A stretch of 64,000 nucleotides of DNA, from the NCBI GenBank assembly GCA_016839365.1, contig JAEOUH010000029.1, positions 1 through 64,000 of the forward strand, written 5' to 3'. The notes under the pieces are model-generated. The model had not been told where the DNA came from. It did no database searches and saw nothing but the letters and a program-made list of their open reading frames with translations. The stretch is from Candidatus Hermodarchaeota archaeon (GTDB lineage Archaea; Asgardarchaeota; Hermodarchaeia; Hermodarchaeales; Hermodarchaeaceae). A program made the translations under genes and the position numbers. The first letter of the stretch is position 1. Every line of letters starts with the position of its first letter. This document shows positions 5,063 to 7,160 of the stretch, piece after piece.

Positions 5063-6028
5063 TTGTCAGATTATGAGAGAAGAAGTCGTGAGTGGTTTGA
5101 TGTGCGCTCACAAATATTAGACCAAAATACACAGCTGTCCTTTTCCGTTTTTATCTTCATCTTAATTACCTCTTTACTGATCGTTAATAGCGAACCGAAA
5201 ATTGCCATATCTGCTCAAGATTCCACAGAGTTGTCAGATGTGAAAGTTGCAATTTATAATGGTGGCCACTCGAATGAGAATTTGGCCAGCCGCACAGCCC
5301 TCATTAGCATGTTTGAGTGGCTTAACGCAGATATTACGCTAATTTCACCCGAAGAAATGCTGAACGGCGCCCTTAGCGGGCACTCCATGCTTGTAATGCC
5401 AGGAATCTCTCCATACACCTTACGCGATGAAATGACTAATATTGGATATGATATTATCCGGAATTTCATCGCAAGTGGTGGCGCATATATCGGAATATAC
5501 GGTGGGACATTTTTTGAATGGACTCGTTTTCCCCTCTTCGATGTTGAGTTACAAAGCTATCTCTCGGATCTTCCCTTCGGAAAGAGTCTCGTAACAATAA
5601 ACCTTCATAAAAATGCAACAGGTCCCAATCTTGATGATCTTCAAGACTCATACTCAACACTAAGTTGGACGGGCAGTTATTTTGATGCCCCTGACATGTC
5701 TCACGTCACTACTATTGCCAGTTATGCACAAAATGGACGCCCGTGCATGGTCACCTTCACCTATGGCATGGGAGCTGTATTTCTGTCTAGCCCACATCCA
5801 GAAATTGAAGAAGGAGACAGCCGTGATTTTACAACCTTCCAAGATGAGCTCAATGACCCAGATTCCGAATGGGAATTAATGCAAGTAATCGCTAGTTGGC
5901 TTCTAGCTATTTCAGGAGTTATGCCCATAAACCCGATTCCTGTTATCATAGTCTCATTAGCTGTTGTGGTCTTTGGAGTTATCGCAATTGCCCTTATTGT
6001 GATTTATCGAAAATCACATATTAAATAA
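5063..6028 (+). CDS. Secreted/membrane-anchored GATase1-like (biotin-protein-ligase N-terminal-like) domain protein lacking the nucleophile Cys
   Basis: N-terminal hydrophobic segment, VKVAIYNGGHSNE...YIGIYGGTFF...SSPHPEIEEGDSRD, C-terminal TM; TTG start in the ORF call. Confidence 0.7.
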   Translation: MSDYERRSREWFDVRSQILDQNTQLSFSVFIFILITSLLIVNSEPKIAISAQDSTELSDVKVAIYNGGHSNENLASRTALISMFEWLNADITLISPEEMLNGALSGHSMLVMPGISPYTLRDEMTNIGYDIIRNFIASGGAYIGIYGGTFFEWTRFPLFDVELQSYLSDLPFGKSLVTINLHKNATGPNLDDLQDSYSTLSWTGSYFDAPDMSHVTTIASYAQNGRPCMVTFTYGMGAVFLSSPHPEIEEGDSRDFTTFQDELNDPDSEWELMQVIASWLLAISGVMPINPIPVIIVSLAVVVFGVIAIALIVIYRKSHIK

Positions 6029-6242
6029 ATTGAACAATGCTCTGCTTTCAAATTACCCAAGGAAAGGATAAGAAATTATAGCCTCTCAGATTTATTGAAC
6101 TATATTGTGCGGAAAAACGCTCTAAAATTTCAAAACCCGCGAGAAATCCTAACCAATCAGCTAACAAGCATATATTGACTAGAAAAGGCGAGTGCTCTCT
6201 CACTATCCTTCCAAACCTAATTTATAATTTAGGGAGACCAAA

Positions 6243-7160
6243 ATGATTAGAGTCAATAGAAAACGAACTCTTGTTCAATGCACAACATTTCTGGTAATTA
6301 GTCTATTTTTTCTGAGTAGCTTTTTACCAATCACACAAATTTCAATAGCAGCCCAAACAGGAACCGATTTAGCAGAAATCCGAGTAGGCATCTATAATGG
6401 AGAACCGGTGCAGAGCGGGTCAGCAACGGCTTTAACCCACATGTTCGAGTGGATGGGATCCACGGTTGTTTCGATTGATGCAGAAGCGATTCGCAACGGA
6501 ACCTTAGATAGTCTTGATTTAGTTGTCTTTGGAGGTGGCTCTCCAAACAATTTCGCATTAGATATTGGTAATGTTGGTATTGAACAACTAAAACAATTTG
6601 TAGCCTGCGGAGGCTCTTACTTCGGTATTTGTGGAGGTGGCATGTTCGCCTCAGATTATCTTGAACTTTGTGTCGGGAGCTGGAGTGCTCATATTCCCGG
6701 AATGGCGGGAGGAGCCTATTTAGCAGAGCTTTCCGTAAATCGTGCTTCAACTGGACCTGACTTGTCAAATGAACCTGAATCGTACTACGTTTATTTCTCC
6801 GATTCCATTTTCTTTGCCCCTGCTAATCCAGTTACAATCATTCGCATCATGTCGTATCCTTCAAATGATGAGGCAGCAATGTTTGTTTCGCGGTATGGAT
6901 CTGGAACTTTGTTTGCGAGTGGTCCCCATGCGGAATACGAAGAGGGTAGTAATCGTGATGGCCTCACGACATATGACTTTCTAAATGATCCTGATTCCGA
7001 ATGGGATATCTTAGAAAAAGTTACTCAATGGTTAATCGACGAATCAGGTACAACAAGTAACCCAGATCCTTTTGCAGGTGTTGGGGCAATCATCCTAGGC
7101 GTGAGTTTGTTAATACTAATCGTGGTATTCAGTGTTGCCTTTTACTTCAAGCGAAAGTAA
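6243..7160 (+). CDS. Secreted/membrane-anchored GATase1-like (BPL_N-like) domain protein with nucleophile Cys
   Basis: Signal-like N-terminus, IRVGIYNGEPV...YFGICGGGMF...SGPHAEYEEGSNRD, C-terminal TM; paralog of 5063..6028. Confidence 0.75.
   Translation: MIRVNRKRTLVQCTTFLVISLFFLSSFLPITQISIAAQTGTDLAEIRVGIYNGEPVQSGSATALTHMFEWMGSTVVSIDAEAIRNGTLDSLDLVVFGGGSPNNFALDIGNVGIEQLKQFVACGGSYFGICGGGMFASDYLELCVGSWSAHIPGMAGGAYLAELSVNRASTGPDLSNEPESYYVYFSDSIFFAPANPVTIIRIMSYPSNDEAAMFVSRYGSGTLFASGPHAEYEEGSNRDGLTTYDFLNDPDSEWDILEKVTQWLIDESGTTSNPDPFAGVGAIILGVSLLILIVVFSVAFYFKRK

Follow-up and report, generated by a model that had tools for sequence, protein, structure and literature searches.

Eukaryotic (class III) biotin protein ligases (BPLs) contain a BPL_N domain. 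In yeast BPL, Cys89, His215 and Glu217 of the N-terminal domain are positioned as a GATase triad, and no glutaminase activity was detected in vitro for this protein with its complete triad (PMC12582158). In some of the class III BPL sequences compared, the His and the Glu at a minimum are reported to be retained (PMC12582158), a parallel to the cysteine-less pattern of Asgard archaea described below. Two proteins encoded in tandem in the DNA analysed here (a 64,000-nucleotide stretch of a Hermodarchaeota contig, hereafter the window) belong to the same Pfam family. Unlike biotin protein ligase, they lack a ligase catalytic domain (Pfam scan), they are secreted and membrane-anchored, and DPDSEW and EYEEGxxRD motifs are particular to the Asgard group to which they belong.

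Class I glutamine amidotransferases (TrpG, PdxT, GuaA and others) have in common with the window proteins the fold (Foldseek E values of 1e-7 to 9e-9 for the gene 2 model) and the C-terminal His-x-Glu, and with the gene 2 protein the Gly-Ile-Cys-Gly-Gly nucleophile elbow, whereas the window proteins are predicted to be extracellular. The product of gene 2 has the elbow Cys and the His-x-Glu in its sequence but is a single-domain protein with neither a synthase domain nor a neighbouring synthase partner; that of gene 1 has Tyr146 in place of the nucleophile Cys. The best PDB matches of the gene 1 model come from two groups of GATase1-like folds that largely lack the nucleophile cysteine, the ThuA-like proteins and a domain of GH42 beta-galactosidases; in contrast to these, the window proteins have a transmembrane (TM) anchor and no glycosidase domain. 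Pseudoenzymes are common in the GATase1 superfamily.

To our knowledge, little is known of the extracellular biochemistry of Asgard archaea, and a literature search on BPL_N or Asgard secreted GATases returned nothing direct. Genes 1 and 2 are ancient paralogues, and they point to an uncharacterised surface protein family in these archaea, made up of secreted GATase1-fold proteins that are for the most part anchored in the membrane. Beyond the Cys/Tyr pair picked out by an earlier sequence-only reading, the most interesting part is the repeated and differently executed loss of the nucleophile within one Asgard surface family.

The tandem genes and their predicted fold

The host is a Hermodarchaeota (Asgard) genome of 2.2 Mb in 93 contigs, 84% complete; the named relatives closest to it are Candidatus Hermodarchaeota, Ca. 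Hermodarchaeum yapensis among them. Besides the tandem, it encodes two more family members, on contig 32 (GICGG) and contig 75 (SVCHG), four in all. The sequence-only reading had placed in the window two secreted GATase1-like paralogues, one with Cys and one with Tyr at the nucleophile elbow, both keeping PHxExEEGxxRD. Rereading the sequence bore out both ORFs with their coordinates, the elbow codons and residues, and the shared motif (Table 1). The proposed architecture also held: both proteins exceed the cutoff of 24.2 bits for Pfam BPL_N (PF09825), gene 1 at 43.2 bits and gene 2 at 53.6 bits, which makes both members of the family, and in each of them hydropathy shows a hydrophobic segment near the N terminus and, at the C-terminal end, a TM segment with a basic tail. 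At 33% identity over 301 aligned positions (E=1e-44), the two are true paralogues. Against NCBIfam, gene 1 had no match and gene 2 solely cobyrinate-synthase-type matches below the cutoff. The start of gene 1 is uncertain, as the TTG at 5063 yields a long extension ahead of the hydrophobic segment; an alternative in-frame GTG at 5102-5104 would give the signal peptide a more usual length.

Table 1. Coordinates of the two genes and their features in the window
Feature	Position	Strand	Basis
Gene 1, BPL_N/GATase1-like secreted protein with Tyr at the nucleophile position, pseudoenzyme candidate	5063..6028	+	ORF; Pfam; AlphaFold; tree
PGISPYT, glycine loop beside the elbow, altered by Ile in place of its second Gly (gene 1)	5399..5419	+	Position-99 comparison
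TAC, Tyr146, nucleophile position of gene 1, within YIGIYGGT	5498..5500	+	Sequence; relatives
Glu-Trp of the FEW motif (gene 1)	5516..5521	+	6/6 Tyr/Thr/Val members vs none in other classes
PHPEIEEGDSRD, catalytic-type His and Glu kept, plus acidic motif (gene 1)	5792..5827	+	Sequence; cysteine-less clades
C-terminal transmembrane anchor of gene 1 (approximate)	5939..6010	+	Hydropathy
Gene 2, BPL_N/GATase1-like secreted protein with nucleophile-type Cys	6243..7160	+	ORF; Pfam; AlphaFold
GGGS, glycine loop next to the elbow (gene 2)	6531..6542	+	Sequence; Cys-member counts
TGT, Cys130, nucleophile elbow of gene 2, within YFGICGGG	6630..6632	+	Sequence; model
PHAEYEEGSNRD, catalytic-type His229 and Glu231, plus acidic motif (gene 2)	6924..6959	+	Cys-member counts
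C-terminal transmembrane anchor of gene 2 (approximate)	7080..7145	+	Sequence and hydropathy scan

AlphaFold models the mature Cys protein with high confidence (mean pLDDT 91.7, pTM 0.92). Cys91 of the model, equivalent to Cys130, lies directly between strand 86-90 and helix 92-99 in a block with pLDDT of 94-97; this strand-turn-helix arrangement identifies a nucleophile elbow, as had been proposed for Cys130. The Tyr protein is modelled with a mean pLDDT of 87.0, with Tyr93 (Tyr146) immediately after strand 88-92, in an elbow of low confidence (pLDDT 66 over residues 91-100). Foldseek matches both models to solved GATase1 structures (E<1e-7, probability 1.00, TM score of about 0.6), assigning both to the GATase1 fold; comparison of the sequences alone with solved GATases is marginal (best E 0.02). 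The PDB matches of the Cys model comprise GATase1 enzymes and related folds (2d7j, 1o1y, 1qdl) as well as ThuA-like, IFT52 and GH42 entries, while for the Tyr model a beta-galactosidase entry of family GH42 and a protein of the ThuA-like type rank first (3tts, 4jqs). With respect to function, these matches of the Tyr protein are a lead rather than a test.

Loss of the nucleophile cysteine across Asgard relatives

Profile searches over 228 genomes of the phylum recovered relatives in 51, and 94 distinct proteins, each of at least 180 residues, were aligned. All but one of these (93/94) are from Asgard archaea. The exception is a distant relative in a Calditrichota bacterium (L053:3734-4696) with Gly at the elbow (GLGGG), representing either a transfer or a deep relationship. 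The elbow residue is Cys in 63 proteins, Arg in 14, Asp in six, Gly and Tyr in four each, and Thr, Val and Ser in one each. One further member, in genome G212 (L078:1774-2466), is interrupted by several stop codons and is probably a pseudogene or an assembly error.

A tree built with the elbow columns left out places cysteine-less proteins in a Tyr/Thr clade (support 98) and in two further clades, one with Arg (14 proteins, support 100) and a Thorarchaeota clade with Asp or Gly (eight proteins, support 99). At least five or six changes between Cys and non-Cys are needed on this tree, depending on the rows kept. A single origin of all cysteine-less forms, the constrained group being defined by residue rather than by the tree, was rejected by the AU test (p-AU 0.0016), the constraint costing 78.5 log-likelihood units. 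The same catalytic residue has thus been lost repeatedly and in parallel within one archaeal surface-protein family.

The survey also disposes of the concern that the Tyr might be private to this genome, since it recurs in three others, two of Hermodarchaeota and one of Lokiarchaeota. The codon in these is TAT, and the orthologue in Ca. H. yapensis, located in the same tandem, has ACA (Thr), so the Tyr codon of the window is not a one-off base error. Val occupies the elbow in L098, the likely Thorarchaeota member of the Tyr group. Its placement in the tree is not firm, one clade with the Tyr/Thr group being neither demonstrated nor rejected (p 0.354), and shared FEW and SPYT motifs are the sole reason for its assignment.

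The remainder of the site is largely retained. Every one of the 61 Cys members with coverage of the site has the His and the Glu, and the glycine loop keeps Gly98 in 56 of 63 Cys members and Gly99 likewise in 56 of 63; as these members were grouped by having Cys, the co-occurrence is an association and not a rate of loss, and a few of them also have an altered loop. Among the 30 members with Tyr/Thr/Val, Arg or Asp/Gly at the elbow, His229 is found in 29 and Glu231 in all, as are Glu233, Glu234 and Asp239. By analogy with GATase1 enzymes, the glycine loop would be an oxyanion-type loop. In those enzymes, the loop after the third strand adjoins the nucleophile, and the cysteine-less clades differ from one another in how this loop or its immediate surroundings have changed. 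Firstly, position 99 is Ile or Thr in all six members of the Tyr/Thr/Val group, which also share an invariant Glu-Trp at positions 136-137 that is absent from every other class. Secondly, the Arg clade replaces Gly98 with Glu (14/14); the joint occurrence of an elbow Arg and a loop Glu in every member suggests that the two form a buried salt bridge where the active site used to be. Finally, the Asp/Gly clade adds CWCxxxC directly after the glycine loop (8/8), which may form either a new disulphide or metal site or a relocated cysteine. As clade-wide states, these changes count as few evolutionary events rather than many. The Arg clade is from Thorarchaeota (L079-L081, L100, L102-L104, L106, L109-L111 and L116-L118). 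Members of the Asp/Gly clade (L090, L067, L091, L085, L073, L086, L087 and L099) are secreted, and a C-terminal TM segment was not found in them.

Maintenance, pairing and possible functions

The reading we favour, and consider probable, is that gene 2 encodes a surface Cys-His-Glu hydrolase or amidase and gene 1 a maintained, ligand-binding surface pseudoenzyme. The Cys protein, which has no known synthase partner, would act extracellularly on a substrate that may be a small amide, a peptide or of the glycan type. In the Tyr protein, with the nucleophile gone and the glycine loop changed, the original chemistry would have been lost; the protein may have been retained to hold a ligand in a rebuilt pocket comprising the ISPYT loop, the FEW motif and PHxExEE..RD. 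Its probable role would be to bind or sense a related ligand at the surface; an obligate partnership with the neighbouring Cys protein is the less likely alternative. That Tyr has taken over as nucleophile is considered unlikely: the orthologue in Ca. H. yapensis has Thr, indicating that the side chain is not strictly needed, and the variation among Tyr, Thr and Val within the group speaks against a new nucleophile.

In these Asgard archaea an enzyme pocket appears to have been put to a use different from its original chemistry, and the repeated parallel loss of one catalytic residue, with active-type and inactive-type paralogues side by side, offers a natural experiment in how such a pocket becomes a binding site. 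A broader proposal, tentative and to be held with some doubt, is that a secreted amidase fold has been converted repeatedly in Asgard archaea into receptor-like binders, with no fewer than three rebuilt forms of the pocket: one with Tyr/Thr/Val, ISPYT and FEW, one with Arg and the loop Glu, and one with Asp/Gly and CWCxxxC. In this third form the cysteine site might even have moved and taken on new chemistry.

Both proteins might instead be non-catalytic surface binders, the cysteine of gene 2 being an ancestral relic or having a redox or structural role. Yeast BPL, inactive as a glutaminase with its triad intact, provides a precedent (PMC12582158), and by the same token glutamine may not be a substrate of the Cys form either. 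The persistence of PHxExEE..RD in members without the cysteine and the many nucleophile-less GATase1-like folds among the PDB matches point the same way. We nevertheless regard this as unlikely, given that no Cys member with coverage of the site lacks the His or the Glu and that each loop glycine is present in most Cys members.

The sequence-only reading had suggested a surface enzyme/pseudoenzyme pair and had asked whether the Cys/Tyr pairing is conserved. An enzyme and a pseudoenzyme at the surface remain a fair description in view of the elbow model, the recurrence of Tyr and the equal constraint on the two genes. A dedicated pair is only partly supported: a Tyr/Thr/Val gene lies beside a Cys gene in two of six genomes (the window's and that of Ca. 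H. yapensis, the latter with Thr), and the surrounding stretch read in the other four, with Tyr or Val, contained no second family gene. In favour of a dedicated heteromer, in which the Tyr protein would be a regulatory or scaffolding subunit of the adjoining Cys protein, two genomes of the genus carry the tandem at the corresponding site with its gene order kept, and at least one Cys paralogue is present somewhere in all six genomes with a Tyr/Thr/Val member. Set against this are the four solitary genes, whose Cys partners are not orthologous to gene 2 of the window (tree), the Thr in the sister tandem, and the gap of 214 bp between the genes, across which co-transcription is not evident; we therefore judge a dedicated heteromer rather improbable. 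Arg-type members occur in three genomes (G194, G195 and G207, rated 97-99% complete) with no Cys paralogue detected among the best ten scored candidates per genome, an absence that is provisional.

Least of all do the data favour a decaying gene 1 in which Tyr arose by neutral drift, a very remote prospect: the elbow does vary among Tyr, Thr and Val in relatives, but the ORF is intact in all six genomes with a member of this group, FEW and SPYT are invariant, a close pair of Tyr orthologues gives a dN/dS of about 0.09 (dN 0.095, dS 1.03), and mature-domain identity between the window genome and Ca. H. yapensis, for which synonymous sites are saturated, is 60.0% for gene 1 and 60.1% for gene 2. 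This last comparison is matched, being drawn from the same genomes and the same locus, and the equal identity speaks for gene 1 being maintained.

Genomic surroundings

Near the two genes lie those for a cupin, an amidohydrolase and a small membrane protein, together with others on the opposite strand. The tandem occupies a syntenic place in the window genome and Ca. H. yapensis, flanked in both by amidohydrolase and cupin genes on one side. The opposite, right-hand flank has genes for a membrane protein, an M20-type peptidase and a LOR/SDH-like protein, as named by reading the sequences. PADLOC gave no match to a defence system, and the absence of relatives among viral contigs speaks against a viral origin. 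A search for RNA elements returned nothing but one tRNA, far from the two genes.

Elsewhere in the host genome, the SVC/TVC-type Cys paralogue on contig 75 lies about 54 bp from a secreted Beta-lactamase-family (PF00144) hydrolase gene on the same strand (L139:3124-5330). The same arrangement is found in a second genome (L148:1604-3814), and the two genes possibly form an operon. A Beta-lactamase-family gene also lies within about 2 kb of solitary Tyr-type genes in two further loci (L143:5576-6943 and L088:5369-6500), PF00144 being confirmed for the former and the latter being an evident homologue by eye.
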